From a virus, in IMG/VR virus record IMGVR_UViG_3300021479_000054, positions 1 through 27,712 of that record: DNA of 27,712 nt; one strand, written 5' to 3'. A model generated the notes under the pieces. It was not told the origin of the DNA. It worked only from the letters and a program-made list of their open reading frames with translations, and searched no databases. Of the stretch, positions 5,544 through 26,480 are shown one piece after another. Position 1 is the stretch's first letter. Each line of letters starts with the position of its first letter. The translations under genes and the position numbers were made by a program.

Positions 5544-6251
5544 ATGCATTCCTTTTCCATTCTCAAGCTCTACAGCGTGCCTTCCGTCCAAGAGTGCCAC
5601 TTACTATTGTCTCGTCTCTCTCCGGGCGCTCACGTGGCTGCAATTGCTATGCAGGGCACTCCATATCATCGAATAGCAGTGAACATGGAAGACGCTGGTT
5701 TTGAAATCCGAGATCAAATCATCTGGGTAGCTGAAATACACGTCTCGATTGCCCTGGCTAGAAAACCTCTTGCAGAAAAGACAGTTGCTCAAAATATTCT
5801 GAAGTATGGAACGGGCGGCTTGAATGTCGATGCGTGTCGGATTGGAACCACGGATAAGCTTGGTGGTGGTTCACGGAGCGGTCCCACAACTTGTGCTGAT
5901 GGTTGGGGCCGTCCGTGGAGACATGACATTAACAAACGAGACTTATATGCTACTCACGCCGAAAGCAAGATAGCCCAAGCGGAAACAATGGGCCGATTCC
6001 CTGCGAATGTGATTTTGACGAAAGAAGCCGGTGGTCGTGTTGATGAACAAAGCGGACATTCGGCGGGTCATCAACGGGTCGCCAAAAGAAGCGCAAAGAA
6101 GACAACACAAGTATACGGCGGGTTCCTGTCGGGTCAACGAAGCGTATTGCAAGGTTACAGCGACTCTGGCGGCGCTTCTCGATTCTTCAAATGGTGTGAC
6201 AATGAAACGGAACTAATCGAGTACTTGACAACACTTCTTCAGCCGGTCTAA
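5544..6251 (+). pseudogene. DNA methyltransferase remnant lacking catalytic and SAM-binding motifs
   Basis: The 235-residue frame clearly belongs to phage site-specific DNA methyltransferases of the N4-cytosine/N6-adenine class. It has LSPGAHVAAIAMQGTPYHRI (~25-44), EDAGFEIRDQIIW (~49-61), ALARKPL (~70-76), KYGTGGLNVDACRI (~87-100), GRFPANVI (~150-157) and SGGASRFF (~208-215). Intact relatives begin with the SAM-region and DPPY catalytic motif, have a GFPKS-type segment after the IIW motif, and finish with HPTVKP and DPFxGSG. Here the DPPY part is absent at the N-terminus, the stretch between IIW and ALARKPL is shortened, and the protein stops at EYLTTLLQPV just before the DPF motif. All losses keep the frame. 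It should not methylate DNA, though a DNA-binding role is possible. Confidence 0.8.
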
Positions 6252-6255
6252 ATAC
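6249..6255 (+). promoter_or_regulatory. CTAAATAC element overlapping the methyltransferase-remnant stop
   Basis: TAAATAC preceded by C, formed partly by the TAA stop. Unlike most other copies it has no start codon 11-13 bases downstream, so it may be inactive or serve a short RNA. Confidence 0.3.
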
Positions 6256-6297
6256 AAGCGTTCAACATCGCAAGTCGTCCAACTTGTGATTCTCTCA

Positions 6298-6345
6298 AGC
6301 CGTCCTAGAAAACCTCCAAAGTGCTTCTAGGGCGGCTCTCTTTTT
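6298..6345 (+). terminator. Strong Rho-independent terminator
   Basis: AGCCGTCCTAGAA (6298-6310) pairs with TTCTAGGGCGGCT (6325-6337), 13 bp with one G-U, followed by CTCTTTTTG. It closes the accessory block just before the packaging block. Confidence 0.9.
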
Positions 6346-6350
6346 GTCTC

Positions 6351-6357
6351 TAAATAC
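6351..6357 (+). promoter_or_regulatory. CTAAATAC element before an HNH-like gene
   Basis: TAAATAC starts 12 bases before the ATG at 6363, directly after a terminator, with no Shine-Dalgarno sequence and no -35 box. A new transcript is needed here, which supports a promoter role. Confidence 0.5.
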
Positions 6358-6362
6358 AGGCG

Positions 6363-6881
6363 ATGCGAGACAATCTAAACCCATTCCTTAAATCGGAAAC
6401 ATCGAATAATCCGTTTGATCCGCTGCCAGTAAGCGAAACATACCGTAAACGTGCAAACCACCAGAGCATCTACTGGAAAGCCAGAGCGCAGACAATCGAG
6501 GGCAGAGCGTTACGACTGCTCAACTCGGCAAAGGTAAGGTCGAAAAAGGACTTGTTGGCATATGATCTCACGCCAGAATGGTTGATTGAAAAACTAACGT
6601 CGGGTCACTGTGAAGTATCCGGCATCAAGTTTGATCTGTTGCTGAGTCAGACAACATCCAAGAACAAATATGCGCCGTCCCTTGATCGTATAGACCCAAG
6701 CAAAGGTTACACAAAAGCAAATACTCGTTGTGTCGTGTGGATGTACAACAGTTGTAAGTCAGAATATTCCGATGGTGAAGTGTTAGAGTTCGCCCGTGCT
6801 CTTCTCAAAACTGACTTGTTGCGCCGTACCGACCGGATGCATGAACTTTATCACGAACTTTATCACGAATCACAACAATAA
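6363..6881 (+). CDS. HNH-like nuclease, free-standing
   Basis: 172 residues. The C-terminal half has HCEVSGIKFDLLL (~92-104), then APSLDRIDPSKGYTKANTRC (~115-134), VVWMYNSCK and a helix (GEVLEFARALL). This matches a divergent HNH/beta-beta-alpha-metal pattern in which DRID takes the place of DH-I and the later N and N-x-x-K residues follow. Such nucleases nick or cut DNA and are often free-standing homing-type genes in phages. The N-terminal ~80 residues are basic and helical, possibly for DNA binding. The 3' end carries a 12-bp tandem repeat encoding ELYH twice. A related gene lies antisense at 15154-15558. No ribosome site; a CTAAATAC element precedes it. Confidence 0.7.
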   Translation: MRDNLNPFLKSETSNNPFDPLPVSETYRKRANHQSIYWKARAQTIEGRALRLLNSAKVRSKKDLLAYDLTPEWLIEKLTSGHCEVSGIKFDLLLSQTTSKNKYAPSLDRIDPSKGYTKANTRCVVWMYNSCKSEYSDGEVLEFARALLKTDLLRRTDRMHELYHELYHESQQ

Positions 6882-6886
6882 ACAAA

Positions 6887-7210
6887 ATGCCGAGTAAGCC
6901 ACAACACGCTTGTAGTTTCCCTCATTGTGTCGCTCGTGTTGCAGACGGTTATTATTGCCCGGAGCACAAGACAACCAGCGACCAATACCGGGGCAGTTCG
7001 GCAGAGCGTGGTTATGACGGAGATTGGAGAAAGTTTCGTCTGTGGTTCATTGAAAGACATCCATTCTGCTTTGATTGTAAGATCGTGGCAACCAAAGATG
7101 TCCATCACGTTTTGAAGTTGGTCGAATACCCGGCGCTGCGATTAGTCGAGAGTAACTGTCTGGGCCTCTGTCATGATTGCCACGCAGTACGAACGGGTAG
7201 AGGCGAATAA
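6887..7210 (+). CDS. HNH endonuclease beside the terminase block
   Basis: 107 residues with a zinc-binding HNH layout: CSFPHC...YYCPEH (~9-26), RGSSAERGYDGDWRKFRLWF (~35-54), HPFCFDC (~57-63), the catalytic VHH (~71-73) and LCHDCHAVRTGRGE at the C-terminus. This subtype sits next to terminase genes in many HK97-type phages, where HNH proteins assist the terminase in cutting concatemeric DNA at packaging. The gene begins six bases after the previous stop with only A-rich sequence before the ATG. Here three secreted-protein genes separate it from the small terminase. Identity is secure; the packaging role rests on family precedent. Confidence 0.9.
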   Translation: MPSKPQHACSFPHCVARVADGYYCPEHKTTSDQYRGSSAERGYDGDWRKFRLWFIERHPFCFDCKIVATKDVHHVLKLVEYPALRLVESNCLGLCHDCHAVRTGRGE

Positions 7211-7217
7211 CATTCTC

Positions 7218-7224
7218 TAAATAC
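7218..7224 (+). promoter_or_regulatory. CTAAATAC element before the first signal-peptide gene
   Basis: TAAATAC starts 11 bases before the ATG at 7229, preceded by TCTC exactly as at 6351. It is not part of the preceding stop codon. No Shine-Dalgarno sequence. Confidence 0.5.
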
Positions 7225-7228
7225 CATC

Positions 7229-7609
7229 ATGCGAAATCTTTATCTGTTTTGTACACTGGCGATCTTGTGTTTATATGTTCAATTCGCCAATCAAGTTCCA
7301 GTATCCGCCCAAGCAAATGTTCCTATAACGATCACTACCAAAGCTGATCTGACAGGCAACAGTGGCACTCAGCAAGTCACGGCAACACCGACCACCTGTC
7401 GTGAAATTCAGTTTGTTGCTTTGGCGGCAAACACAGCGGCTATAAGAATGGGTGATGCTTCGACCGCTGTAAGTCAAGGATTACCGATTGCTGCGGGTGG
7501 TGTTTGGAACCGGGCTCAAAATCCCAACATCAATTTTGTTCATCGTCTTGACTCATATTATTTCTATGGGGTCACTGGCGACAAACTATCAGTGACGTGT
7601 GAGAACTAA
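7229..7609 (+). CDS. Secreted phage protein, unknown, with Sec signal peptide
   Basis: 126 residues. An N-terminal signal peptide is plain: MRNLYLFCTLAILCLYVQFA, then NQVPVSAQA, with likely cleavage near residue 29. The mature part (~95 residues) is beta-rich with Thr, Ala and Gly. It contains VALAANTAAIRMGDASTAVSQ (NTAAIRMGD) and HRLDSYYFYGVTGDKLSV, a pattern seen in small phage decoration or fibre-associated domains. Two cysteines (~57 and 124) could pair after export. It is the first of three consecutive genes with signal peptides, placed between an HNH gene and the terminase. What an exported protein does here is not known; display on the host cell or release with the virion are both possible. 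Confidence 0.75.
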   Translation: MRNLYLFCTLAILCLYVQFANQVPVSAQANVPITITTKADLTGNSGTQQVTATPTTCREIQFVALAANTAAIRMGDASTAVSQGLPIAAGGVWNRAQNPNINFVHRLDSYYFYGVTGDKLSVTCEN

Positions 7610-7610
7610 A

Positions 7611-8084
7611 ATGTTCAAAGGTATCTGCTTACTCATTTTCTTTTGCTCGATTCTTTCATTCGCACAATACAACCCTCCGGGCGGCGGGAGTGGGAGTGGT
7701 GGTGGTCCCACACGGCTTACGTTCCTCAACTGTGCCGCCCCATGTGTGATAGGCGATCAATCGAATTGGAAGCAAACTATCACGTCGTCAATGGCGGTGA
7801 CAAGTTGCAGGATAGATGCGGCTGTTTATCCGACCGGCGCTAACTTGGTGGTCGATATAAAAAAGAATCCAACGCCAGTGAGTATCGGTGTGTGGACGGG
7901 CGGAACAACAATTTTTACTTCGACGACATTAGTGTTGCCCGCTGCCGGGACGAATTCAGTTAGTCAAAGCGGCATAGCGGCTGCGGGAACTTTGGCATCT
8001 GGTGATTATCTTGTGTCATTCGTAACGGCGGTAGGCTCGACAATCGCCGGTCAAGGAGTGAATATTGTATGCTCCGCACAATAG
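7611..8084 (+). CDS. Secreted phage protein with Gly-rich linker, unknown
   Basis: 157 residues from ATG 7611, one base after the previous stop; a GTG at 7599 is less likely. Signal peptide MFKGICLLIFFCSILSFAQ, then a PPGGGSGSGGGP linker, then a beta-rich domain (TRLTFLNCAAPCVIGD to the end) with regularly placed Thr/Val strands and a last-strand cysteine (VNIVC). It resembles small jelly-roll or Ig-like phage surface domains by composition only. Four cysteines in the mature protein fit disulfides outside the cytoplasm. It overlaps the following gene by 16 bases, so the two are co-translated. No family recognised. Confidence 0.75.
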   Translation: MFKGICLLIFFCSILSFAQYNPPGGGSGSGGGPTRLTFLNCAAPCVIGDQSNWKQTITSSMAVTSCRIDAAVYPTGANLVVDIKKNPTPVSIGVWTGGTTIFTSTTLVLPAAGTNSVSQSGIAAAGTLASGDYLVSFVTAVGSTIAGQGVNIVCSAQ

Positions 8085-10366: not shown

Positions 10367-10429
10367 TCCGAAGGCCGGAAGTGGTTGAAAGGATGGGAGT
10401 TAGGAGGGGTGTGTAAGATCCTTAGAATC

Positions 10430-10459
10430 AAAGGGTTGCCGTGACCCCAACGCCCTTTT
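10430..10459 (+). terminator. Possible terminator after the secreted-protein cluster
   Basis: AAAGGGTTG (10430-10438) pairs with CAACGCCCTTT (10448-10458) with a two-base bulge; only TTC follows the stem. It lies in the 126-base gap before the terminase small subunit gene. Confidence 0.5.
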
Positions 10460-10492
10460 CCACGTGTTCGGACAGAATTTTCAAAGGTAAAT

Positions 10493-10939
10493 ATGGCAAA
10501 TCGAGGACAAAACCGTCAACCGGGCTCAGTACGAGACATCAAGGAAGGCTCACTAGCGGGCAAATTAGACCCGCCACAAGATGTACAAGCACCAAAGTGG
10601 CTCTCGGGTCCAGCCAAGAAAGAATTCAAGCTCCTGGTGTCTTATTTGAAAGATGCTAATGTCCCGATCAAACAGTTAGATGCTTATGCAATAGCGATGA
10701 CTGCCCAATGTGTAACTAGTGTCGCCGATTGGTCCGTTAAAGAACAGGCGGCTACTTCGCTTGACGATCAATTAGCATGTTCGCAGCAGGTCGCACGATT
10801 TCAAAGAGACTCGCAACAATGGCTTGCCTCAATTTGCGCTTCACCAAAGTCGAGAGTTCAAATCGGTCTCCGGTCAACAGACAAGAAACAAGGACCGCTG
10901 GCAAAGCTCCTAGAGCAGAAGCAACAGAATGGAAGTTGA
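10493..10939 (+). CDS. terS: Terminase small subunit, P27 family
   Basis: 148 residues. The N-terminus GSVRDIKEGSLAGKLDPPQD followed by APKWLSGPAKKEFKLLVSYL is the characteristic start of P27-type small terminase subunits, and the helical middle (LDAYAIAMTAQCVTSVADW) and Lys/Gln-rich tail fit the family. The protein recognises the packaging site on phage DNA and recruits the large subunit. The ribosome site AAAGG lies six bases before the ATG. It overlaps the large-subunit gene by 11 bases, so both are made together. Size is normal for the family. Confidence 0.9.
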   Translation: MANRGQNRQPGSVRDIKEGSLAGKLDPPQDVQAPKWLSGPAKKEFKLLVSYLKDANVPIKQLDAYAIAMTAQCVTSVADWSVKEQAATSLDDQLACSQQVARFQRDSQQWLASICASPKSRVQIGLRSTDKKQGPLAKLLEQKQQNGS

Positions 10940-11879
10940 AACAAATCAAAAAGGAATCTATTTCGATCATAAGTCAGTTGCCCTGGACATTGCGTTTATC
11001 GAAAGTTTGACCCTCACCAAATCGACATTGAGCGGTAAACCGGAACCTTTCGTTCTTCTGAAACCTCATCGAAAACTCATCACTAATTTGCTTGGTTGGA
11101 AACGGCAAGACGGAACCCGCTTGTATACCCGCTGCTTTTTCTCAGTGGCTCGAAAGAACGCAAAATCGACTAGTTGCGCTGCCCTGGCCCTGGCATTACT
11201 CGTGATGGACGACGAGCAAAGCCCGGAAATTTACTTGGCTGCGAAAACAAGAGAACAGGCTTCCATTGTATTTGATGCCGCTGTCCAGTTCATCTATGCA
11301 CACCCGGAATTAAGATCACTACTCAAAGTAACACCGTATTCAAAAACCATTATCAACCCAATGAACAACGGCGTATTGAAGGCTCTCTCGTCGGAAGGCA
11401 AGACGGCGCACGGTAAGAATCCGAGTGCAGTTATCTTTGATGAGTTATGGGCATGGGACACGCCAGAGCAAGAACTATACGACGCTCTGACATCGGGCAG
11501 CGCTGCTAGAAGATCGCCGATTTTTTGTTTCATTACAACTGCTGGTGTCAATGAACATACTCTCTGTGGCCGTGAGTACGATTATGCGGTCAAGGTACGA
11601 GATGGCGTGATAGTTGATCCTCATTACTTGCCGTTGATTTATGAAGTTCCAAAAGATGCAGATTGGACCGATGAAAAGTTGTGGCATCTTGCGAATCCGT
11701 GTCTAGGCTCGATTGTCAAACTCGAATCACTCAGAGAAGACCGGGACAAGGCTCTCAATGTGCCGAGCGAACAGACAGCGTTTAAGCGGCTTCATTGCAA
11801 TATGTGGGTGAACAGTCGAGATACCTGGATTCCGGTCGGTAAGTTTGATCTGTGTAAGTGGGACGGTAAATCATTCTAA
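10929..11879 (+). CDS. terL: Terminase large subunit, ATPase half (split gene)
   Basis: 316 residues covering the packaging-motor ATPase domain of an HK97-type large terminase. Motifs: SVARKNAKST (~72-81) as Walker A, with Ala where ARKNGK usually has Gly; VIFDELWAW (~168-176) as Walker B with catalytic Glu172; and FITTAG (~201-206) as the coupling motif. It pumps DNA into the prohead. The ORF stops after CKWDGKSF, which in intact homologues is the linker into the nuclease domain. Its TAA overlaps the ATG of the nuclease ORF as TAATG. No slippery heptamer is visible at the junction, so re-initiation is likelier than frameshifting. Confidence 0.93.
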   Translation: MEVETNQKGIYFDHKSVALDIAFIESLTLTKSTLSGKPEPFVLLKPHRKLITNLLGWKRQDGTRLYTRCFFSVARKNAKSTSCAALALALLVMDDEQSPEIYLAAKTREQASIVFDAAVQFIYAHPELRSLLKVTPYSKTIINPMNNGVLKALSSEGKTAHGKNPSAVIFDELWAWDTPEQELYDALTSGSAARRSPIFCFITTAGVNEHTLCGREYDYAVKVRDGVIVDPHYLPLIYEVPKDADWTDEKLWHLANPCLGSIVKLESLREDRDKALNVPSEQTAFKRLHCNMWVNSRDTWIPVGKFDLCKWDGKSF

Positions 11880-12568
11880 TGGATTCAATTTTCCTCACCA
11901 AAGATCCAACAGGACAGAAGTTTCTTGAATACCTAAAGCCACACCCTTGTTATGCGGGTTTGGATCTTGCAAGCGTTTCAGACTTGACCGCATTCGTCTT
12001 AGCATGGCCGATTAAGGATGTTGTCTACACATTTCCTTGGTTCTTCATACCGGGCGAAGAGTTGCCAGCGAGATGTAGACAGGATTCAGTACCTTACGAC
12101 CAATGGTTGAAAGCTGGTCACATAGAGGTTACGCAAGGAAATGTGACCGACTGGAGGTATGTTTGTAGGCGCATTAAAGAGCTTTCGACAGTCTTCAAGA
12201 TTCATGATATAGGCTTCGACAGAGCGGGCGCAAGGGACATTGTATCCGATTTGACTGATGAAGGAATTGTTTGTACCGATGTTTCTCAAGCAATGATGTC
12301 GCTCACAGCACCAGCGAAACGACTTCAAGAACTCATTTTATCGACGAAGTTAGTACACACAGGCAACCCCATTCTCCGGTGGAATCTCGATTGTGCTTCG
12401 ATCTATGGCGACTCTAACGGCAACATCAAAGTATTAAAGCCTGATATCGGCAAGTCATCTAAAAGAATTGACGGAATCATTGCTCTAATTATCGCTATGG
12501 AGCGTCTACAGAAAGCACCAACTCAACAGAAGTCAATCTACAGTCAACGTGGCTTGTTGAAGCTTTAG
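11879..12568 (+). CDS. Terminase large subunit, nuclease half (split gene)
   Basis: 229 residues matching the C-terminal RNase H-like nuclease domain of large terminases. YAGLDLASVSDLTAFVLAWP (~25-44) carries the first metal-binding Asp (D29), IGFDRAGARD (~115-124) the second, and KRIDGIIALIIAMERL near ~205-220 the third. The domain cuts concatemeric DNA at the start and end of packaging. The ORF is in the -1 frame relative to the ATPase ORF and begins in the stop codon of that gene (TAATG). That frame is closed by a TAA just upstream (11867-11869), so a frameshift product could only arise in the last few codons. All three acidic sites are present, so this half looks functional. Confidence 0.92.
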   Translation: MDSIFLTKDPTGQKFLEYLKPHPCYAGLDLASVSDLTAFVLAWPIKDVVYTFPWFFIPGEELPARCRQDSVPYDQWLKAGHIEVTQGNVTDWRYVCRRIKELSTVFKIHDIGFDRAGARDIVSDLTDEGIVCTDVSQAMMSLTAPAKRLQELILSTKLVHTGNPILRWNLDCASIYGDSNGNIKVLKPDIGKSSKRIDGIIALIIAMERLQKAPTQQKSIYSQRGLLKL

Positions 12569-12589
12569 TCATTAGAGTTAGCGGCACTC

Positions 12590-12596
12590 TAAATAC
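12590..12596 (+). promoter_or_regulatory. CTAAATAC element before the small membrane protein gene
   Basis: TAAATAC starts 13 bases before the ATG at 12603, preceded by CTC, 21 bases after the terminase stop and independent of it. No Shine-Dalgarno sequence is present. Confidence 0.5.
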
Positions 12597-12602
12597 CTAC
12601 AC

Positions 12603-12773: not shown

Positions 12774-14368
12774 TGGGTTTCATCTCACGGTCGTTAGGTA
12801 TTCAAGCACTGTCAATGGAAGATCCCAGTCAGCCCTTGATGCCCTACGATGCGCTTTATGAATCGTTGGGTCTCGGGCGGTCTGACTCCGGGATTCTGAT
12901 AAACGAAAAGATGGCAATGCGTTTAGCAACTGCCTACTCGTGCGTGAAGATTGTGTCCGAAGATTTGGGGCGCTTGTCATTGGAAATCTATCAACAGATG
13001 CCAGATGCTTCGATGCGCCTAGCAACAGAACATCGCCTTTACGACGTACTTCATACAAGACCCAATCCCAATATGTCGAGTATGACTTGGCGTGGTGCAA
13101 TGATCGCCAATGTTTTAATCAACGGCAATGCTTATTCATGGATTAAAAGGGACAAGGCATCAAGAGTAATTGCACTCGTACCACTTGACGCAGCAAAGAC
13201 ATCGCCAGTTATGCGAAATGGTGAGTTGATGTATGCGACCACTCAAACAGATACCGGGCACGTTACTTACATTGAGTCGATGAACGTTTTGCATTTCATG
13301 GGGCTCTCTATAGATGGCATTACGGGTATCTCGCCGATCTCAAATTGCAAAAATACATTCGGTCTCGGTCTTGCCGCTGAGAAGTACGGTAACCAATTCT
13401 TCGGTAATGGCGCTCGTGCAACTGGAGTGTTCAGTCACCCACAACATCTCGATACCGAAGCTTACGAAAACATCAAGAAGAGTCTACGTGAAGTTGCGAC
13501 CGGCGATAACGCTCTTCGTCCAATCGTGCTCGAAGAAGGAATGTCGTTTACTCCCCTGAGTTTGAAGAACGACGAATGTCAGTTCATGGAAACTTACCGC
13601 TGGTCGAAAGAACAGGTAGCTTCATTATACCGTGTGCCGATGCATCTTCTTCAAGATCTCACTCGGAGCACGAATGCAAATATCGAACATCAATCACGAG
13701 ATTACGCACAGTATTGCTTGTCTCCGATTGCAGTGAAGTTTGAACAGGAGATTAACTTCAAATTACTCGGCGGCGCTTACTTCTGCGAACATAACTTTCG
13801 TGAAATGGAGCGAAGCGATTTTGCAAGCCAAACGACCGGGTTACTTGCTCTTCGTAACGGCGGCATCTACTCAGCGAATGACGTACTGAAAGCTCTCAGA
13901 GAAAATCCGATTCCCGAAGATCAGGGCGGCGACATCAGAATTGTTCAGGGCGCTTTCATACCGCTGGATTCGTTGTTGCTCGAAGACGGCAAGCCCGCAG
14001 TTCCCGAAACCGCTGGTACGAATACCGATGAGAGTCCATCCAATTTTCGCAAGACACAAATTCTCGCATCGTATCGCCCACTGTTCCGAGACGCTGTAGG
14101 TCGCTCTATTAATCGGAACAACGACCAGGACTTCATCAAGAAAGCATTTCAACCCGCCGTCGCTTCGATGTGTCAGGCGTTGTTAGCGATGAACTTTGGA
14201 CAATCCGAATTATCAAAGGACGATCTTATCAGGGTCGCAACTATCGTAAATACTGTTTCGACGGGTTCAGATACATGGAACAAATCCGACGCATCTGAAA
14301 TTGCAACAAGAGTAACGGCGGTGGTGTTTGACACACTCGCTCAGGAGCTATTACATGAAACACCATAA
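12773..14368 (+). CDS. Portal protein, HK97 family
   Basis: 531 residues. Recognisable portal features are AYSCVKIVSEDLGRLSLEIY (~54-73), the HRLYDVLHTRPNPNMSSMTW block (~86-105), NGNAYSWIKRD (~116-126), ISPISNCKNTFGLGLAAEKY (~184-203) and the YRVPMHLLQDLTRSTNANIE stretch (~286-305). The portal forms the dodecameric ring at one capsid vertex through which DNA enters and to which the tail joins. The length is slightly above the usual 400-500 residues because of a helical C-terminal extension after ~410. It begins inside the stop of the small membrane protein gene and ends 14 bases inside the protease gene. Confidence 0.95.
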   Translation: MGFISRSLGIQALSMEDPSQPLMPYDALYESLGLGRSDSGILINEKMAMRLATAYSCVKIVSEDLGRLSLEIYQQMPDASMRLATEHRLYDVLHTRPNPNMSSMTWRGAMIANVLINGNAYSWIKRDKASRVIALVPLDAAKTSPVMRNGELMYATTQTDTGHVTYIESMNVLHFMGLSIDGITGISPISNCKNTFGLGLAAEKYGNQFFGNGARATGVFSHPQHLDTEAYENIKKSLREVATGDNALRPIVLEEGMSFTPLSLKNDECQFMETYRWSKEQVASLYRVPMHLLQDLTRSTNANIEHQSRDYAQYCLSPIAVKFEQEINFKLLGGAYFCEHNFREMERSDFASQTTGLLALRNGGIYSANDVLKALRENPIPEDQGGDIRIVQGAFIPLDSLLLEDGKPAVPETAGTNTDESPSNFRKTQILASYRPLFRDAVGRSINRNNDQDFIKKAFQPAVASMCQALLAMNFGQSELSKDDLIRVATIVNTVSTGSDTWNKSDASEIATRVTAVVFDTLAQELLHETP

Positions 14369-15182
14369 GCCATATTTCAAAGCATCAATGCAGAACGATG
14401 ACACACTGGAGATGCTTGTCTACAGTCCGATTGGTGAAACATACGACGGCACGGGTGTAACGGCGCTGGATTTCAAAGACCAGATCGACCGGGCAAAGAG
14501 CTTCAATAAGATTGTCGTTCGTATCAACTCTCCGGGCGGCGATGCATTTGAAGGTATCACGATTTACAATCTTCTTCGTGCTCAAAAAGTGCCGATCCAA
14601 GTTTGGGTGGATGGAATTGGAGCTTCGGCGGCTTCGATTATTGCGATGGCTGGTGATGAGATTGTCATGTCCAGTGGTAACAGTATGCTTATGATCCATA
14701 ACGCAATGGGCTTTGGTGCTGGCAATGCGACCGACCTACGGAAGCTGGCCGATGTACTCGACAAGGTTTCGGTTTCAATTGGTCAAACTTACGTCGGAAT
14801 AACGGGCAAGACAGCAGAAGAGATCACGAACATGATGAATGCTGAAACGTGGATGACAGCGGACGAATGTGTTACCAATGGTTTCGCTACCAGGATCGAA
14901 CAAGATGATAGGTCAGTTCAGGCTATGGCAATGGCTCGTACTTTCAAGATGACAAACTTCAAATCAATTCCCGACAAACTTAAGAACGAAATGATCGACC
15001 CGGAATGTATCTGTCAATGTGAAAACTGCATGGCCGGTGATTGCAAAGACTGTTCGATGGAAAACTGTGTGGACGCAAACTGTACCGATTGCCCGATGCA
15101 GAAAGAAGAGACACAAGAACTGACGGACGAATCCAACTTGAGTTTGTACGAAGCTAGACTTTCACTATTGAATCTCCGTTAA
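14355..15182 (+). CDS. ClpP-like head maturation protease with Cys-rich tail
   Basis: 275 residues from ATG 14355, chosen because AGGAG lies seven bases before it; the ORF is open further upstream. It is a ClpP/SppA-type serine protease: RINSPGGDAFEGITIYNLL (~56-74), nucleophile Ser in GIGASAAS (S91) and catalytic His in MIHNAMG (H115). It cleaves the scaffold and capsid N-termini during prohead maturation. After ~200 residues there is a cysteine-rich segment (CICQCENC, GDCKDCSMENC, DANCTDC) with about ten Cys, probably metal-binding, then a helix that may act as the internal scaffold. The last ~29 bases overlap an antisense HNH-like gene. Confidence 0.92.
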   Translation: MKHHKPYFKASMQNDDTLEMLVYSPIGETYDGTGVTALDFKDQIDRAKSFNKIVVRINSPGGDAFEGITIYNLLRAQKVPIQVWVDGIGASAASIIAMAGDEIVMSSGNSMLMIHNAMGFGAGNATDLRKLADVLDKVSVSIGQTYVGITGKTAEEITNMMNAETWMTADECVTNGFATRIEQDDRSVQAMAMARTFKMTNFKSIPDKLKNEMIDPECICQCENCMAGDCKDCSMENCVDANCTDCPMQKEETQELTDESNLSLYEARLSLLNLR

Positions 15183-15558
15183 ACTGGTGTGGAATATTGG
15201 CATTCTGAAGAATAGTGAGTGCTTCTTCATCGGTTGAACTTCCTTTTACTCTGTTGTACCAGAACACGACAATCTGAAAATTCTCCGGTGTGTACCCTTG
15301 ACCAGGAATCTTTTGATCTATCGAAGGCGCATAAGGATTCTGCCGACCGTCACCAAGGGCTGTGAAATCAAATGAATCAGGTATTACTTCCGCTATGCCG
15401 TTGAGAGCTACCAAGCGATCATAGACCATCTGTTTTGTAATAGTGAATGGCAGACGGTTCTTTTTTGCTCTTTGCTTGGCACTGTGAAATAGTTGGACAC
15501 TTCGACCCATCACAGTCGAAGTGTACACAAGTCTTCTGATACGAAGGTTATGTATCAA
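15154..15558 (-). CDS. Antisense HNH-like nuclease inserted between protease and capsid genes
   Basis: 134 residues from the TTG at 15558, or 118 from the ATG at 15510, which gives MGRSVQLFHSAKQRAKKNRL and looks the better start. The C-terminal part YAPSIDQKIPGQGYTPENFQ then VVFWYNRVKG and a helix matches the 6363-6881 protein (YAPSLDRIDPSKGYTKANTR, VVWMYNSCK). It is therefore a second member of the same divergent HNH family, with D-Q-K-I in the metal-site position. It is the only minus-strand gene inside the head block, as expected for a mobile homing-type nuclease. A perfect 10-bp hairpin surrounds the ATG at 15510. Its 3' end overlaps that of the protease gene. Activity cannot be judged from sequence. 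Confidence 0.72.
   Translation of the reverse strand: MIHNLRIRRLVYTSTVMGRSVQLFHSAKQRAKKNRLPFTITKQMVYDRLVALNGIAEVIPDSFDFTALGDGRQNPYAPSIDQKIPGQGYTPENFQIVVFWYNRVKGSSTDEEALTILQNANIPHQFNGDSIVKV
15497..15524 (-). promoter_or_regulatory. Hairpin enclosing the start codon of the antisense HNH-like gene
   Basis: ACACTTCGAC and GTCGAAGTGT (10 bp, perfect) flank an 8-base loop that contains the ATG at 15510-15508 on the minus strand. The 5' arm occupies the position of a ribosome site, so the structure could limit translation. Confidence 0.6.
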
Positions 15559-15572
15559 GCAATGAATCGTTA

Positions 15573-15579
15573 TAAATAA
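15573..15579 (+). promoter_or_regulatory. TATAAATAA, possible variant of the phage promoter element
   Basis: TAAATAA in the 108-base gap before the capsid gene, 94 bases upstream of its ATG. This is the only such element between the antisense gene and the capsid. The rest of the gap shows no ORF and no clear sigma-70 promoter. Confidence 0.3.
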
Positions 15580-15666
15580 TCCTAGATCGTTCTACACAAT
15601 CTTATGGAGCCGGTCTAAGCTGATGCAGGGTACTCGGGTATCTTTGGACATCGCAACACAAAACAC

Positions 15667-16981: not shown

Positions 16982-17017
16982 AAAGGGCTCATTCCTTACC
17001 GGGAGTGGGCCTTTTTT
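16982..17017 (+). terminator. Rho-independent terminator after the capsid gene
   Basis: AAAGGGCTCATTCC pairs with GGGAGTGGGCCTTT (13 bp with one bulged G and two G-U pairs) and is followed by TTTATT. It should cut most transcription after the capsid gene and favour high capsid dose. Confidence 0.85.
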
Positions 17018-17037
17018 ATTGGTCCTGACTGTAACCA

Positions 17038-17044
17038 TAAATAA
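17038..17044 (+). promoter_or_regulatory. TAAATAA element before the first connector-region gene
   Basis: TAAATAA starts 13 bases before the ATG at 17051 and 21 bases after the terminator T-run, so it could restart transcription. No Shine-Dalgarno sequence is present. Confidence 0.45.
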
Positions 17045-17050
17045 CACTAT

Positions 17051-17233: not shown

Positions 17234-17237
17234 ATTC

Positions 17238-19733: not shown

Positions 19734-19814
19734 CTTTGATTCCCTCTAGGTCATCATCCTACCTCGTCCACGCCACGAATGTAAATGGTACTAGTTCCAC
19801 TTAGTTTTCTAATC

Positions 19815-20480
19815 ATGCAACTTCCTTTAGTTTCAGCAATCATGCCGACCAAATCTCGCCCGGAAATGGCAAGGGCGGCTCTCGAATCATGGCGGGCGCA
19901 AAGCTGGCCGAACACCGAACTGGTGATTGTTGACGACAGCGAGGACCCTAGTTTTTCGAGTTCACCGGAAGGCGTTGTTTACCATTCCATCGCTGGCGTG
20001 TCCATCGGGGCAAAGCGAAACATTGCCTGTGGGTTGGCAACCGGCGCTTACATTGTTCATTTCGACTCGGATGATATTTCCAGTCCTGAAAGAATCGCCG
20101 ATCAGATTCACACTCTCCAAGATTCACAAAAGCAAGTGACCGGCTACCACTCGATTCTCTTTCATGAATTACGTTCTGTAAGTATTGTGACATCTGACGG
20201 GCTTCGAGCGACATCCGGTTACTGGCGCTGGACATCACAAACCGCCGAAGCCTGCGGTACTTCATTTTGTTACCGCAAAGAATGGTGGTCTAAACACAAT
20301 TTTGCTGACGAACACTTAGGCGAAGATTTCCTTTTCTGGAGAGAAGCTGTCGAACTCGGTGAAGCTATCACAGTGGACGGCGGCAATATGATTTGTGCGA
20401 CCAATCATCCAGGGAATGCTTCAAAACGAATTGTCGCCGGTGATGATTGGGTCGCATTACCTAGTGATCCTCGCTGCTAA
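19815..20480 (+). CDS. Family 2 (GT-A) glycosyltransferase
   Basis: 221 residues from ATG 19815 (MQLPLVSAIMPTKSRPEMAR); an upstream ATG at 19785 is possible. Motifs: PLVSAIMPTKSRP at the start, ELVIVDD (~35-41), SIGAKRNIACGLATGAYIVH (~63-82), the metal/nucleotide-binding HFDSDD (DSD ~84-86) and GEDFLFW near the C-terminus. It transfers a sugar from a nucleotide-sugar donor. In a prophage tail region it may glycosylate virion proteins or alter host surface sugars to block superinfection. No membrane segment is seen. It lies between divergent start signals and the tail-tube gene, with no ribosome site. Confidence 0.88.
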   Translation: MQLPLVSAIMPTKSRPEMARAALESWRAQSWPNTELVIVDDSEDPSFSSSPEGVVYHSIAGVSIGAKRNIACGLATGAYIVHFDSDDISSPERIADQIHTLQDSQKQVTGYHSILFHELRSVSIVTSDGLRATSGYWRWTSQTAEACGTSFCYRKEWWSKHNFADEHLGEDFLFWREAVELGEAITVDGGNMICATNHPGNASKRIVAGDDWVALPSDPRC

Positions 20481-20484
20481 ATAC
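20478..20484 (+). promoter_or_regulatory. CTAAATAC element upstream of the tail-tube gene
   Basis: TAAATAC partly overlaps the glycosyltransferase TAA stop and lies 50 bases before the tail-tube ATG. In contrast to other copies this gene has a true Shine-Dalgarno sequence. Confidence 0.4.
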
Positions 20485-20989: not shown

Positions 20990-21378
20990 TGAACATCGTT
21001 AAAGCTGGAGTTCCCGAATCAGGCAACGACGCCACACTAGCCGCATTTGATGCCGTTTATTCGGTACAGGCGGCATTGGTCAGCGGAGCCATTTCACCGA
21101 CTCAAGGGTTAGTGGCTCTCACAAAAGCAGGCATAGCAGTAATGACGCTTGCGACTCCCGTAGCTGGCTTACCTTCAGCGGGCGGCAATGATGGTCAAGA
21201 GCTTGTCATCATCGACACAACCGGAAACGCACACACTGTAACCACGGCGGCAAGCAAAATAAATGGTAGTTTGCACATCATCACTTTTGCGGGCTCCATC
21301 GGCGATCTCGTAATGCTTCGTGCCTATGGCGGTGTTTGGTACACGAATCCTTCCAACTCTGGCGTGGTAATTAGCTAA
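20989..21378 (+). CDS. Unknown phage protein with a C-terminal surface-type beta domain
   Basis: 129 residues, coupled to the tail-tube gene by TAATG. The N-terminal ~50 residues are helical (DATLAAFDAVYSVQAALVSG). The C-terminal half (GNDGQELVIIDTTGNAHTVT, then LRAYGGVWYTNPSNSGVVIS) matches the small beta domain found in phage fibres and decoration proteins. Placed directly after the tube gene it may decorate the tail tube. The role is inference; the gene itself is well supported by position and coupling. Confidence 0.75.
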   Translation: MNIVKAGVPESGNDATLAAFDAVYSVQAALVSGAISPTQGLVALTKAGIAVMTLATPVAGLPSAGGNDGQELVIIDTTGNAHTVTTAASKINGSLHIITFAGSIGDLVMLRAYGGVWYTNPSNSGVVIS

Positions 21379-21389
21379 TTCCTCGAAGC

Positions 21390-21396
21390 TAAATCA
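21390..21396 (+). promoter_or_regulatory. CTAAATCA, variant of the CTAAATAC element
   Basis: TAAATCA starts 11 bases before the ATG at 21401, preceded by C, with no Shine-Dalgarno sequence. Confidence 0.35.
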
Positions 21397-21400
21397 TCGT

Positions 21401-21766
21401 ATGCCCAAAAAGTCTGTCGCCGGTAGCCATGCGGACCCGACGATTCAATTCTCAACACTCACGATTGATGACCAAAAGTTCTCGCTCTGTTTTAGCTTTA
21501 ATGCTATTGCTCTGGGCGAACACGCAGCCGGTTGTAACCTTCTCAACGGTCTACTGAATCTCCAATCTGGGATGTCTGCGCTAGAACTGCGTGGCCTTCT
21601 TTATGCAGCTATGACGGTCGCAAAACCAGATACCACGATTGAAGACGCTGGAAAGCTGATCCGACTCGACACTATTGGGCCGGTGACGATGGCGTTAGCT
21701 GAAGCCTATTCGCTGTCTTTACCAAAAAAAAGCGTGGAGTCGGAAGTAGCAAGCGAAGCACACTAA
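21401..21766 (+). CDS. Tail assembly chaperone (gpG-like), frameshift donor
   Basis: 121 residues. IQFSTLTIDDQKFSLCFSFN (~16-35), AIALGEHAAGCNLLNGLLNL and LEDAGKLIRLD-like helices match short tail chaperones that bind the tape measure in the cytoplasm before tube assembly. Near its end the run of eight A (21724-21731) forms the slippery heptamer A_AAA_AAA in the correct phase. A -1 slip after codon 110 enters the next ORF, giving the longer gpGT-type protein. The product without slipping ends KKSVESEVASEAH. Chaperone pairs of this kind are required in most siphoviruses. Confidence 0.85.
   Translation: MPKKSVAGSHADPTIQFSTLTIDDQKFSLCFSFNAIALGEHAAGCNLLNGLLNLQSGMSALELRGLLYAAMTVAKPDTTIEDAGKLIRLDTIGPVTMALAEAYSLSLPKKSVESEVASEAH
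21724..21731 (+). promoter_or_regulatory. -1 programmed ribosomal frameshift site (A_AAA_AAA_G)
   Basis: Eight consecutive A follow CC. In the gene frame they read CC-A AAA AAA AG-C, the classical X_XXY_YYZ arrangement. The -1 frame is open from here to 22113 without a stop, and its product has the C-terminal chaperone domain. Confidence 0.85.
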
Positions 21767-22113
21767 CCAATCTTGAACTGTGGGAAAGATGCTGGTCTGT
21801 CGGTCGGGTAGTGTTGGGGCTGACGGACGATGAGTTCTATTCACTCACGCCTTTTCAATTCCACCTACTGTTAGATCAACACGAAGTAAAAACTAAACAC
21901 CAAGAATTGTTGTTTGGCATTGTGTCTTCGACTGTAGCGAACTACTCAATGGTTCGTGGAAAAGCGCCCGTTAGTGCTAAAGAGTTCATGCCTTCTTCTT
22001 GGGGAAAGGACAAGCCAGCGCCCGTAAAGAAACTGACCAAAAAGGATCGCCAGAAGATTGCGGATAATCTGCGGATGACTCTAGCGCCGTTCGTATCCGT
22101 ATCCAAACCATAA
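21730..22113 (+). CDS. Tail assembly chaperone extension (T part of gpGT-like fusion)
   Basis: Read in the -1 frame after the slip, 127 residues: KRGVGSSKRSTLTNLELWER, GLTDDEFYSLTPFQFHLLLD (~33-52), an alanine/valine-poor helix and a basic tail (KDKPAPVKKLTKKDRQKIAD). The LTDDEFYxLTPxxF motif is the usual start of the T domain in tail chaperones. A GTG at 21811 could give an independent 100-residue product, but no ribosome site is present, whereas the slippery site and open frame are. The fusion would be ~237 residues. Confidence 0.82.
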   Translation, partial: KRGVGSSKRSTLTNLELWERCWSVGRVVLGLTDDEFYSLTPFQFHLLLDQHEVKTKHQELLFGIVSSTVANYSMVRGKAPVSAKEFMPSSWGKDKPAPVKKLTKKDRQKIADNLRMTLAPFVSVSKP

Positions 22114-22117
22114 ATAC
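22111..22117 (+). promoter_or_regulatory. TAAATAC element before the gp10-like gene
   Basis: TAAATAC begins with the chaperone stop codon and starts 12 bases before the ATG at 22123. No Shine-Dalgarno sequence. Confidence 0.45.
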
Positions 22118-22122
22118 ATTTC

Positions 22123-22554
22123 ATGCCGACAGAATTCTCAATCAACATCAAAGGTATCGAGGAAGTCACGGCGGCATTAACCAAGATGCCAGACCGACTT
22201 GTGAAGAACGCATTTGCAAGAGCATTGGCGGCAAGTGCTGTACCAATCGTGGAAGCTCTGAAACCTAGAACGCCGGTTGATACTGGTCTGTTGCAGTCGT
22301 CCATTATGGCTGACATTCAAATCGACACAACTGGCAAGGGTGGAGAGTTGGCTGTTGGTTTCGGCAAACAAGGTTACGTTGCACGAATGATTGAGTACGG
22401 ACATCGAATCGTAGGACACGAACCAAAAAAGAAAGACACGGGAAAAGTAGTCGCCGGTAAGCCATTCATGCGTGGATCGGCGGCAACATCGGCAGATGCA
22501 AGTGTGGACGCATTTGAAGAATCAATAAGAACGTCAGTAGAGAGTGGAATCTAA
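22123..22554 (+). CDS. HK97 gp10-like tail/neck protein
   Basis: 143 residues of the HK97 gp10 family: INIKGIEEVTAALTKMPDRL (~8-27), helical AFARALAASAVPIVEALKPR, the hallmark TPVDTGLLQSSI (~51-62), VGFGKQGYVARMIEYGHRI and GKPFMRGSA (~107-115). It acts at the head-tail junction in siphovirus assembly. Normally encoded near the connector genes, here it lies between the chaperone and tape-measure genes. Three bases before the next ATG its stop forms TAAATG. Confidence 0.88.
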   Translation: MPTEFSINIKGIEEVTAALTKMPDRLVKNAFARALAASAVPIVEALKPRTPVDTGLLQSSIMADIQIDTTGKGGELAVGFGKQGYVARMIEYGHRIVGHEPKKKDTGKVVAGKPFMRGSAATSADASVDAFEESIRTSVESGI

Positions 22555-24741
22555 ATGCCAACAAAAGCGGGCCAAATTATTATTGACGTACAAGCCGGGA
22601 CCAGTAAGTTTGTCGTTGACATGGAGAAGGCGAATGCCAAAATTCGTGAACTTGGCACGTCTAGCGCTGGTGCTGTCGGTGAACTAAAGGCCACAACCGC
22701 CACGATGAAGACCCTCGAAGGCGGCTTGACCAACAACAATCGTGCAGCGACAGCATTTCTTGTAAACATCCTGAAACTTGGTCCCGCCATGCAAGTAGCT
22801 TTCCCCGTCATCGGCGCTATTGCGTTTGCCGGTGTGATTGGTGAAGTCGGAAAGAAGGTGTACGATTTCTTTAAGCAACTGAGTGAGGCTCCCGCTAAAA
22901 CCAAAAGTGCTTGGAGTGAACTTACATCATCAATTCAATTATCCAACGCTCAACTTGAACTATCGAACGCACAGTTAGAACAAGAGATTGCAAAGCTCGA
23001 AGGCAAACACCAGAACAATCTGGCAATCAATCTTTTAGAGGCCAAGGTTGCTGCCGAACAACTTGGTGAAACATTAGAGAAAGATATTCAGAGCATGTAC
23101 AAGCTGTTCAAAGAGGAAGACGCTGGCTTGATCGGTCGCATGTTCGGCGGCGCTTCGACTGCGGCTCTTCAAAAAGTTTCACAGCAGGCGGCACGGGATG
23201 TTCAAAAAGCCAACTTAGTGCAAGATGAACGTCTTTCTAGTATTGATCCAAAAGACAAGAACGCCAAACGAGACAGACAGCAAATTATCGAGGATACACA
23301 GTCTGACTACAATGACGCATTCAAAAAGATCACGGATCAACTTCGTAAAGACTTGTCCGATGCTGAACTAGCTGCTAAACCGGCAGCAGACTTGGGTGGA
23401 CATTTCGGTGATGTAGGATACCGTATTCCGGGCTCTGTTGATGAAGATGCCGTAAAGCAGGTTGAAAATCTCAAAATACAGTTGATGCAGGTTGATGGAT
23501 TATACAGAAAGATATCCGATACCAACAAACACATGGGTCTTTCTGAAACGGTAAGGGATAAGAAGACCGACAAAGAGAATGCAAAGCCAGATGACGACCC
23601 GGCTGGCGATGCACTCAAGAAGCTCCACGCACAGGTAAAAGCTGTCAACACAGAATTAGCGTCAGTCGGTAAAGGACACGAAGCGCAGTTGATCGCCAAA
23701 GCTTTTGCTACAGCCGGTGAAAAGGTAGAGGAACTGAATAATCAAATCGTCAAGCTGAATGAAAAACTACCGAAGGGGAAACAAATAAAGCCTGTTTCTG
23801 ACGTGCAAAAAGCAGACTTTCAGCAATCAGAAAAGGATCTCGCACAAGGCAAAGACCAAGTTGAATTTGGAAACAGGATCGCTGAAACAATCGCAAAACT
23901 GAAGGAAGAAACAGCGGCACAAAATACTTTAAGTGCCACAATCGGCGAGGGCTACGAAGCCGTCAAGAAAGCTGCCATTGAAGTGATGACCATAAAGGAA
24001 TTTGGTTCTCGCATCAATGAAAATGAGGATGAAACAGAGCGGTATCGTGCGGCTCAAGAAGCCAAGTATGACTCCGAACATGCGGCACAAATCAAAACCA
24101 CTATTGCTGGACTCGAAAGACAAACCGCATTTGAAAAAGAGTTAGCAAACGCCGAAGCATTAGGAGCCGGTGCCGTTCGTAAGGTGACTCTTGAATACGC
24201 TATCCAGGAAGCACAGTTACACGCCAATGTGTCGCAATGGGAAGCGATCAGAAAGGCAATGACCGATGCGTCTGATTCAAAGCTTGCGACCGATCTTTCC
24301 AAGGAAACGGCACAGCTTAAGTTGAAGACAGAAGCGATGGAACGTCTTGCAAAAGCTGTGGGCATACTTGCGAAGGAAGAATCCGAATTAGAGAACGTCC
24401 GTAGAGAAGCTATAGCACAAAACAAGAATCCTGATGAAGCCGTGGACGCAGCGCAAAGACGGATACGAGCAGACGTAAGCAACAAAGCAGGAACATTGGC
24501 TAGTCAGTATTCAGACAAGAGTATTGAAATCGCTAGAGAGAAAGTAGCCCTTAATGACAAGCTGGCGAATGGCGAGATAACACAGGAGCAATACGCAGCG
24601 GCACGCTTGTCATTGGACAAACAGCAACTTGAAGTCATGATCCAACAAGAGGAAGCGTCTGGAACTATCAAGGGTAGCATTGACGCAACCTTCGACAAGA
24701 TGAAATTGGATTCCAAGGAAATTGGAAAAGGTGCTTGGTGA
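22555..24741 (+). CDS. Tape measure protein, N-terminal and central part
   Basis: 728 residues. It starts MPTKAGQIIIDVQAGTSKFV with the KANAKIRELG pattern typical of tape measures, then a hydrophobic segment (~78-104, PAMQVAFPVIGAIAFAGVIG) and long Ala/Glu/Lys/Gln helices with coiled-coil character. An example is the repeated LSNAQLELSNAQLEQE at ~129-144. The protein sets tail length inside the tube. The frame ends KLDSKEIGKGAW, while homologous-looking sequence continues in the +1 frame from 24722. A single extra G in AAAAGGTG would explain the break, so this is either a frameshift mutation, a sequencing error or a natural two-part tape measure. Confidence 0.85.
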   Translation: MPTKAGQIIIDVQAGTSKFVVDMEKANAKIRELGTSSAGAVGELKATTATMKTLEGGLTNNNRAATAFLVNILKLGPAMQVAFPVIGAIAFAGVIGEVGKKVYDFFKQLSEAPAKTKSAWSELTSSIQLSNAQLELSNAQLEQEIAKLEGKHQNNLAINLLEAKVAAEQLGETLEKDIQSMYKLFKEEDAGLIGRMFGGASTAALQKVSQQAARDVQKANLVQDERLSSIDPKDKNAKRDRQQIIEDTQSDYNDAFKKITDQLRKDLSDAELAAKPAADLGGHFGDVGYRIPGSVDEDAVKQVENLKIQLMQVDGLYRKISDTNKHMGLSETVRDKKTDKENAKPDDDPAGDALKKLHAQVKAVNTELASVGKGHEAQLIAKAFATAGEKVEELNNQIVKLNEKLPKGKQIKPVSDVQKADFQQSEKDLAQGKDQVEFGNRIAETIAKLKEETAAQNTLSATIGEGYEAVKKAAIEVMTIKEFGSRINENEDETERYRAAQEAKYDSEHAAQIKTTIAGLERQTAFEKELANAEALGAGAVRKVTLEYAIQEAQLHANVSQWEAIRKAMTDASDSKLATDLSKETAQLKLKTEAMERLAKAVGILAKEESELENVRREAIAQNKNPDEAVDAAQRRIRADVSNKAGTLASQYSDKSIEIAREKVALNDKLANGEITQEQYAAARLSLDKQQLEVMIQQEEASGTIKGSIDATFDKMKLDSKEIGKGAW

Positions 24742-25417
24742 CGAAATGACACACGCACTTGATTCTGTGTCGGGTGAATTCGCCAAGTTTGCCACGGGAC
24801 AAAAGACCAACTTCAAAAAGATGTTTCAGGGCCTCGGCGAAGAGCTTGTCAAACAATCCACAAAGAAAGCGATAGAACTAGGTTTAGGAAAATTGGGCCT
24901 TGGTAGCAAACAAAAACCAATTGATGTTTGGGCGGCACATCCACACCTTGACGGACAAACGCACGTTATTGTGGATAATCCATGTCCTACTCAGGGACAA
25001 AACGGTCAACAAATTCCTGGTGGTGGTGCATCTGGTTTCGCTGGTTTGAGTGCATTGATTGGCCTAGGCGGTGTGTTTGGCGCTGGTGGGTCGGCTGGCG
25101 GTGAGGGTCTTACCGAAGCTGTCTCTAGTTCAATCTCGTTCATGGCGGCTGGTGGTGATGTTGATCCGGGCAAGGGATATGTGGTCGGCGACGGTGGAGA
25201 ACCCGAATGGTTTTCACCGAAGACAGCGGGCACGATTACACCAATGAGCAAGATGGGTGGTGGAGATCACTACTATCAGATTGACGCAAGGGGCGCACAA
25301 CTCGGAACGGAAAATAGAATCGCCCGGTCAATTGAAGCTTCTCACAATGCTGCTGTTTCCAATTCTATTAGAGCTAGTAAAGAGCACACTGCAAGAACGC
25401 CTCAGAGGACGAAATAA
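24722..25417 (+). CDS. Tape measure protein, C-terminal part in the +1 frame
   Basis: 231 residues from the TTG at 24722, or 223 from ATG 24746 (MTHALDSVSGEFAKFATGQK). FKKMFQGLGEELVKQSTKKA and the Gly-rich stretch (GASGFAGLSALIGLGGVFGA) followed by DPGKGYVVGDGGEPEWFSPK and GTITPMSKM are the usual C-terminal signature of siphovirus tape measures. It overlaps the first part by 20 bases. Joined at ...KEIGK/VLGDEMTHAL it would restore one protein of ~950 residues. The end is coupled to the next gene by TAATG. No strong ribosome site favours independent initiation. Confidence 0.82.
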   Translation: MEKVLGDEMTHALDSVSGEFAKFATGQKTNFKKMFQGLGEELVKQSTKKAIELGLGKLGLGSKQKPIDVWAAHPHLDGQTHVIVDNPCPTQGQNGQQIPGGGASGFAGLSALIGLGGVFGAGGSAGGEGLTEAVSSSISFMAAGGDVDPGKGYVVGDGGEPEWFSPKTAGTITPMSKMGGGDHYYQIDARGAQLGTENRIARSIEASHNAAVSNSIRASKEHTARTPQRTK

Positions 25418-25830
25418 TGCCAACAATCACCATATCGGGGCAAACCTGGACGACTCAGACCATGCCCACCGACCCGATTGCACCAGCGTCTTTTGAGTTC
25501 CAACATAATGCGATTGTGGCGAGTTCAACCAATCCATTCAATGCAAAACAACAAATGTTCAACTGGAATGCAGCGTACAAAGAATGTTCTGTTTCCTATG
25601 CTTCGATGACGATATCACAAGGTCAAACATGGGCGGTATTTCTGGAGAGTTTAAATGGTCAGTTGGATGTCTTTAGATTTTCGGATGCCCTGATTGCCGT
25701 GTACGTAAATGAACTGACGACCGATGGCAGCACACCTAGATACTGGCGGTTGAAAACCAATCAAGTGAAATGGAGTGTCAAAGAAGGCTCTGTTTATGGC
25801 GTGAGCTTTGAGCTTCGGGAAGTGGTCTAA
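25417..25830 (+). CDS. Minor tail protein (distal-tail-like)
   Basis: 137 residues, beta-rich, starting MPTITISGQTWTTQTMPTDP. It contains NPFNAKQQMFNWNAAYKECS (~39-58), MTISQGQTWAVFLESLNGQL (~64-83) and a final YGVSFELREVV. Proteins of this size and make-up directly after the tape measure form the ring at the tail tip in many siphoviruses and gene transfer agents. Coupled on both sides by TAATG. The assignment rests on position and on the WxxFL/SFELREV pattern. Confidence 0.72.
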   Translation: MPTITISGQTWTTQTMPTDPIAPASFEFQHNAIVASSTNPFNAKQQMFNWNAAYKECSVSYASMTISQGQTWAVFLESLNGQLDVFRFSDALIAVYVNELTTDGSTPRYWRLKTNQVKWSVKEGSVYGVSFELREVV

Positions 25831-26441
25831 TGCCACGTGTTCTTTCTGGCGCAATGATAACCGCTTTGTCGGCTCCCGTGCTGAATCCCGCTATCTTTGT
25901 CCAAGTCGAGTTTTTGGATCACGTTGACGGGACCACGCACTTAGACGTTTTTGATAATGTTTATGTGTGGACTGGTATTGGTTCTGTTTCTTGGAATAGT
26001 CAAACGTGGATCGGTCTCGGCGCATTTCTTGGATTGACCACACCCGAAGATTCCAGCGTTGTTGAGGCAAAGGGCATCACCCTAACGTTTTCCGGCATTG
26101 ATCCGACTGTACTGCCGGATGCCCTTAATAAAGTTGTCCTAGGGGCTCCCGTGACAATCTACCTTGCGCTATATGACGGCTCACACACGCTGATTGCCGA
26201 TCCTGTTATCGCTTGGGCAGGAAGATTGGATCAACCGACCTTCGATGTCGATCCACAAGAAGTGAGCCTTAGTATCAATTGTGAATCTCGTTTGCTCGAC
26301 ATGAACGTCGCTGTTGACAGGCGGTTGACGAACGAAGATCAACAAATGAATTGGCCCGGTGATCTCGGTTTTCAATTCGTTGATGGACTTCAGCAACAAA
26401 CAATCTTTTGGGGTCAATTTCCTACAGGCTCGAACCTTTAA
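25830..26441 (+). CDS. Tail tip/baseplate protein, DUF2163-like
   Basis: 203 residues. Features include a WTGIGSVSWNSQTWIGLGAF block (~48-67), LTFSGIDPTVLPDAL (~85-99), WAGRLDQPTFDVDPQEVSLS (~129-148), INCESRLLDMN and the closing RRLTNEDQQMNWPGDLGFQF with FVDGLQQQTIFWG. This is the pattern of the DUF2163/hub-associated proteins encoded after the tape measure in siphoviruses and gene transfer agents, where they connect the tail tube to the central fibre. Starts by TAATG overlap; the next gene follows after 44 bases. Confidence 0.8.
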   Translation: MPRVLSGAMITALSAPVLNPAIFVQVEFLDHVDGTTHLDVFDNVYVWTGIGSVSWNSQTWIGLGAFLGLTTPEDSSVVEAKGITLTFSGIDPTVLPDALNKVVLGAPVTIYLALYDGSHTLIADPVIAWAGRLDQPTFDVDPQEVSLSINCESRLLDMNVAVDRRLTNEDQQMNWPGDLGFQFVDGLQQQTIFWGQFPTGSNL

Positions 26442-26473
26442 TACACCCACATAAGCAACGCCATTCAATCACC

Positions 26474-26480
26474 TAAATAC
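26474..26480 (+). promoter_or_regulatory. CTAAATAC element before the tail-hub gene
   Basis: TAAATAC starts 12 bases before the ATG at 26486, within a small palindrome CACCT-AAATAC-AGGTG (26471-26485). AGG is too close to the ATG for a normal ribosome site. It is not part of the upstream stop. Confidence 0.5.

Follow-up and report, generated by a model that had tools for sequence, protein, structure and literature searches.

The sequence TAAATA(C/T) is probably the core of a phage-specific late promoter that has no -35 element, and from which three related phages, putatively of soil Acidobacteria, would produce mostly leaderless mRNAs, with a leader present at the capsid and major tail genes. 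What was observed directly is the motif itself, with its spacing, strand, position and conservation, as well as its absence from sampled host genomes. We refer to the whole analysed stretch of DNA (27,712 nucleotides) as the window. It corresponds to positions 926-28637, reversed, of IMGVR_UViG_3300050821_023961 (G001), a viral contig of 36,213 bases. The late block of the window is of the ordinary siphovirus type, with terminase, portal, protease, HK97-like capsid and tail genes.

Distribution of the motif in the window and its relatives

An earlier note on this DNA had drawn attention to TAAATAC, and its positions and distances are confirmed by recounting. Eight copies are present in the window, all of them on the + strand and none on the - strand; the shuffle mean is 2.03, and eight copies are reached in none of 100 shuffles. 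The copy at 6351..6357 lies 12 nt before ATG 6363 of an endonuclease VII-like gene and is a predicted leaderless late promoter. Further exact copies are found at 7218..7224 (11 nt before ATG 7229 of a small gene with a signal-peptide-like start), 12590..12596 (13 nt before ATG 12603 of a small membrane protein gene upstream of portal, with TAAATA also at the starts of the G002 and L095 orthologs), 22111..22117 (12 nt before ATG 22123 of a tail completion protein, also present at the G002 ortholog) and 26474..26480 (12 nt before ATG 26486 of a tail fibre or tip protein, also present at the L095 ortholog). The two variants, both on the + strand, are correctly spaced as well: TAAATAA at 17038..17044 stands 13 nt before ATG 17051 of the gene that follows capsid, where the relatives have TAAATAT and TAAATAC, and TAAATCA at 21390..21396 stands 11 nt before ATG 21401 of a tail assembly protein. 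No Shine-Dalgarno match occupies the usual place at any of these starts, as had been claimed. To the list we add an uncertain, weak variant (TAAATCA, 11867..11873, +), 12 nt before ATG 11879 of the C-terminal ORF of terminase. The odd copies also lie where they had been placed: the one at 6249..6255 overlaps a stop codon with no start within range and is possibly there by chance, and the one at 14247..14253, inside the portal gene, is probably a chance occurrence.

The association with gene starts is not reproduced by shuffles. TAAATAC-N4-6-ATG occurs five times in the window and at most twice in any of 400 dinucleotide shuffles. Further, when the best 7-mer is sought in any 3-nt offset window before 39 gene starts, TAAATAC comes out, with five genes; 1000 draws of internal ATGs give a maximum of three. 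The reading of the motif as a late promoter thus survives the comparison with shuffled sequence.

It survives the comparison with relatives too, since the same signal recurs in two phages retrieved via portal, terminase, capsid, tail fibre and HNH queries. One is G002 (3300050821_002214, 35 kb), whose capsid is 61% identical to that of the window. The other is L095, also labelled G018 (3300037248_000040, 26 kb, an incomplete record), with a capsid 49% identical; either this phage or a near-identical one is also represented by the fragments L094 and L147. Together, G001, G002 and G018 contain 38 copies of TAAATA on the + strand and three on the - strand. We call a copy start-proximal if, on the + strand, the ATG or GTG that opens a reading frame of 50 aa or more lies 11-13 nt downstream of the first T of TAAATA; the start codons of all three phages are predictions. 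Of the 41 copies, 24 qualify, compared with 1.2 expected by position alone (P about 6e-23). The offset is 11 nt in eleven cases, 12 nt in seven and 13 nt in six, and never 10 nt; two GTGs at 9 nt belong to copies already counted at 12. G002 and G018, neither of which was used in finding the motif, alone contribute 18 start-proximal copies versus 0.83 expected. Among all 4096 hexamers ranked at this position, TAAATA is first with 23 occurrences, and the runner-up has 11.

Alignment of 23 copies gives YYM-TAAATA-[C/T], i.e. pyrimidines and then C or A ahead of a core that is invariant by construction of the search. There is no conserved column farther upstream and therefore no -35 box, which agrees with the earlier note. 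Nearly all copies in the three phages sit in the late region, from HNH/terminase through the tail genes; one G002 copy stands ahead of a methyltransferase gene that is not part of the structural block. AUG is usually the start codon best known from leaderless translation, and the six start-proximal copies (of 24) that precede GTG therefore count against the leaderless reading.

The three motif phages group together in the portal tree (87/91), and the terminase tree has no such group. The phages in this comparison are mosaic. An annotated phage collection yielded no DNA-level match to the window, and the best portal relatives there are less than 40% identical.

Promoters with a leader and the proposed mechanism

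Two conserved sets of copies lie at a distance from their genes. The window carries TATAAATA at 15571..15578 (+), with TAAATA 94 nt upstream of capsid ATG 15667; this predicted capsid promoter with a leader had been missed previously. Ahead of the capsid gene, TATAAATAA is found in the window, TATAAATAA in G002 and CTAAATAC in L095, at 94, 107 and 121 nt upstream, respectively. The full TATAAATA is present at two copies only, both of them putative capsid promoters. TAAATAC also precedes the major tail gene, by 50, 60 and 56 nt in the window, G002 and L095, where AGAGGA, CAGGAG and AGAGGAA, respectively, stand ahead of the start codon. In the window this copy (20478..20484, before ATG 20528) is predicted to be a promoter that is followed by a short leader with AGAGGA. 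Because the motif is kept far upstream of both genes in all three phages, it would act there as a promoter with a leader and not as a translation signal of the start codon.

Several copies closely follow strong hairpins with T-rich tails. The earlier note had placed two copies after terminators, and terminator-like hairpins do precede the motifs at 6351 and 17038. The first hairpin (6299..6336, +), with a T-rich tail, folds at -22.1 kcal/mol just upstream of the 6351 promoter. For the second (16982..17015, +), which follows the capsid gene, the folding energy is -20.8 kcal/mol, and for its counterparts in G002 and L095 it is -21.5 and -17.1 kcal/mol, respectively. About 20 nt separate this hairpin from the motif of the next gene, both in the window and in L095. 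A consensus hairpin scanner gave no report near 6299 or 16982, and both were folded directly.

From this anatomy and from comparison we infer promoter function and leaderless mRNAs. A promoter is preferred over a translation signal because of the far-upstream copies, the copies after hairpins, the strict orientation and the spacing known from T4 and Aeh1. In the proposed mechanism, TAAATA(C/T), in most cases with pyrimidines and then C or A ahead of it, would serve as a -10-like core with no -35 element, to which RNA polymerase would be redirected by a phage or host factor. Transcription would start about 11 nt past the first T, either on the start codon itself or up to 2 nt ahead of it. If the T4/Aeh1 spacing applies, the mRNA begins at one of these places, i.e. 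it is leaderless, and most late genes that lack translational coupling would be made in this form. The capsid and major tail genes would be transcribed from this promoter too, and their mRNAs would in addition carry a leader and a Shine-Dalgarno-like sequence.

Recognition, specificity and competing explanations

In T4 the late promoter is TATAAATA, at -13 to -6, and in Aeh1 it is CTAAATA, from -12 (PMC1524935); the T4-family late promoters include NATAAATA in S-PM2 (PMC1524935; PMC2988020; PMC2984593). The motif described here resembles them in its TAAATA core, in the lack of a -35 element, in its location before late genes and in the same, here predicted, distance to the transcription start; the Aeh1 sequence and its position are almost identical. 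Our phages depart from the T4 family in being temperate and of siphovirus type. In addition, searches of them for a gp55-like sigma region 2 and for the T4 clamp found neither, and the predicted transcription start appears to fall on the start codon itself.

Sigma region 2 confers -10 recognition on sigma factors and on T4 gp55 (PMC2988020). The phage sigma factor suggested in the earlier note did not turn up: PF04542, with E values allowed up to 5, hit nothing in any of the three phages, in a search that works in control genomes and that could miss a diverged form, as T4 gp55 may escape the profile and G018 is incomplete. PF02916, for the T4 clamp gp45, matched nothing in the three phages, nor did any control genome pass the cut-off, so that the sensitivity of this search is unproven. 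The T4 system also has a region-4-like component, the gp33-type flap-binding co-activator. Among our phages, a 129-aa protein of G002 has a sigma-70 region-4-like domain (PF04545, E 8e-9; L032 2134-2523 (+)), and no such match was found in G001 and G018. Single-sequence structure predictions for this protein and for window 5187-5537 are too poor for use (pLDDT 56 and 54, respectively). A strongly diverged gp55-like protein is a possible reader of the motif, as is a host alternative sigma factor. Since its defining components were sought and not found, the motif is classed as working like a T4-type late promoter and not filed as a member of the T4 system. The earlier idea of a phage-specific late promoter, T4-like in principle and starting at or near the ATG, is supported by these comparisons of sequence.

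Acidobacteria are reported to have leaderless genes whose promoter element stands about 12 nt ahead of the start (PMC3160421), and a TANNNT -10 next to the start codon marks leaderless genes in Deinococcus-Thermus, Actinobacteria and also Acidobacteria (PMC3160421; PMC12340547). Our phages resemble these genes in having their element some 12 nt upstream of the start codon and in lacking a Shine-Dalgarno sequence. They differ in that TAAATA[C/T] is nearly invariant, phage-specific and absent before starts in the sampled host relatives. TANNNT itself shows no clear excess about 12 nt before the starts of the three phages, where TAAATA is found instead; at 11-13 nt we count 0 TAnnnT in G001 (1.2 expected), 2 in G002 (0.85) and 1 in L095 (0.63).

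A host could be approached for G002 only. This phage is flanked by two parts of a host tRNA-Thr(CGT) gene, the core sequence being GATTACGAATC. The joined tRNA-Thr is 100% identical to one in G307, 97% to that of Bryobacteraceae genome G016 and 96% to that of G205. These identities point to a Bryobacteraceae-like (Acidobacteriota) host. Samples of G307 and G205 have no TAAATA ahead of their gene starts; in them, TAnnnT 11-13 nt before starts is in excess (5 vs 1.6 and 6 vs 1.0, respectively) and Shine-Dalgarno sequences are common; leaderless starts thus probably exist in such hosts, but without the TAAATA motif. An origin of the motif in host genomes was rejected: in 396 Acidobacteriota genomes CTAAATAC-N4-6-ATG has no general excess over a reversed control, and the sole outlier, G390, has its sites mostly inside genes.

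These data bear on an explanation in which the promoter is the same, but a sigma factor of the host, housekeeping or alternative, recognises it, the phages having copied a host promoter class. The failure to find a phage sigma region 2 speaks for it, and so does the TAnnnT excess, which indicates leaderless -10 promoters in host relatives. It remains doubtful, because TAAATA does not fit TAnnnT and is neither present before starts in the two host samples nor generally in excess in the 396 genomes. Base composition deserves consideration, as the motif-bearing phages have a GC content of 0.47-0.50 and most relatives 0.55-0.65. The latter have no or only single start-proximal copies, even those as close to the window in terminase as G002, and, taken together, they have Shine-Dalgarno sequences much more often than expected. 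However, the motif was not found in the relatives with GC 0.43-0.50 (L029, L052, L119, L239), so composition alone is no explanation, and an AT-rich word falling before ATGs by chance is hardly credible given that neither shuffles, internal ATGs nor permuted hexamers reproduce the pattern and that the P value for position over three phages is so low.

The earlier note had offered, as an alternative, an RNA-level initiation signal. In this reading the ribosome or a protein would bind UAAAUAC, located 4-6 nt ahead of the start codon, instead of a Shine-Dalgarno sequence. Tight spacing to the start codon, scarcity of Shine-Dalgarno sequences at these genes and strict orientation would all fit. 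A precedent may be proposed in cluster K mycobacteriophages, whose start-associated sequences consist of a 13-bp GGGATAGGAGCCC with a Shine-Dalgarno part and occur in the non-structural half of the genome (PMC3203893). Like them, our motif is a phage-specific repeat just upstream of many starts, mostly in one orientation; unlike GGGATAGGAGCCC, it has a different sequence and no AGGAG. We consider such a signal distinctly unlikely: it is disfavoured by the far-upstream motifs of the capsid and major tail genes, whose starts have Shine-Dalgarno-like sequences in all three phages, by the copies directly after terminator-like hairpins, and by a spacing and core equal to those of a known promoter class. 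Very improbable is an operator or other binding site, on which a phage regulator would repress or activate. The repetition of a short site upstream of many genes of one region would fit, but TAAATAC is not palindromic, has a single orientation and a fixed spacing to start codons, and no separate promoter motif stands alongside it.

Returning to the late promoter, we suggest tentatively, as a possibility that falls somewhat short of probable, that a late regulon of T4/Aeh1 type has arisen in temperate Acidobacteriota siphophages without gp55. A phage protein would redirect host RNA polymerase, and with the coupling to leaderless mRNAs each uncoupled late gene would require no more than a 7-nt signal. 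If our assumptions are true, then T4-type late promoters exist outside the T4 family, and there are phages that express most of their uncoupled late genes from leaderless mRNAs. The motif gives a testable route to the factor redirecting RNA polymerase in Acidobacteriota phages, and would improve the annotation of start sites and promoters in them.

Further features of the three phages

Besides structural genes, only HNH and glycosyltransferase genes are common to G001, G002 and L095, with integrase and methyltransferase present in two; a dedicated regulator common to the three was rejected on this ground. The family 2 glycosyltransferase gene lies amid tail genes in the window (19785-20480), and its homologues in G002 and L095 occupy different places in the genome. 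Endonuclease-like genes stand among the structural genes of all three phages (window 6363-6881 and 15154-15558 (-); G002 24481-25179; L095 19700-20254), and some have a TAAATAC of their own. They are of endonuclease VII type by PHROG or Pfam, and the G002 one reads GIY-YIG-like. The gene at 6363-6881, under the first of the predicted leaderless promoters, has its best match in an endonuclease family (E 6e-28); weaker PHROG matches (E about 1e-7) are to families of T4 Srd, the 'decoy of host sigma70'.

G002 has its own tRNA-Thr(CGT) (L032 206-281), which perhaps replaces the split host gene. Near its region-4-like gene there is a response-regulator receiver protein (L032 538-942).

The capsid mRNA leader (15584..15666, +) contains a conserved hairpin, shared by dozens of acidobacterial phage contigs, among them G002, L095, L009, G003, L015, L073, L080, L082 and L103. 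It consists of a 6-bp stem with a CAGG, CCGG, TCGG or CTGG loop, followed by GCGGGC. Over 29 distinct arm pairs, a set preselected for pairing, 94% of positions pair, versus 63% with partners shuffled. An Rfam search of the leader gave no match, and the hairpin is possibly a new structured RNA.

Finally, the large terminase is encoded by two ORFs, at 10929-11879 and 11879-12568 of the window, joined by TAATG. Two separate ORFs are found in G002 and L095 as well, so the split is conserved and no sequencing error.
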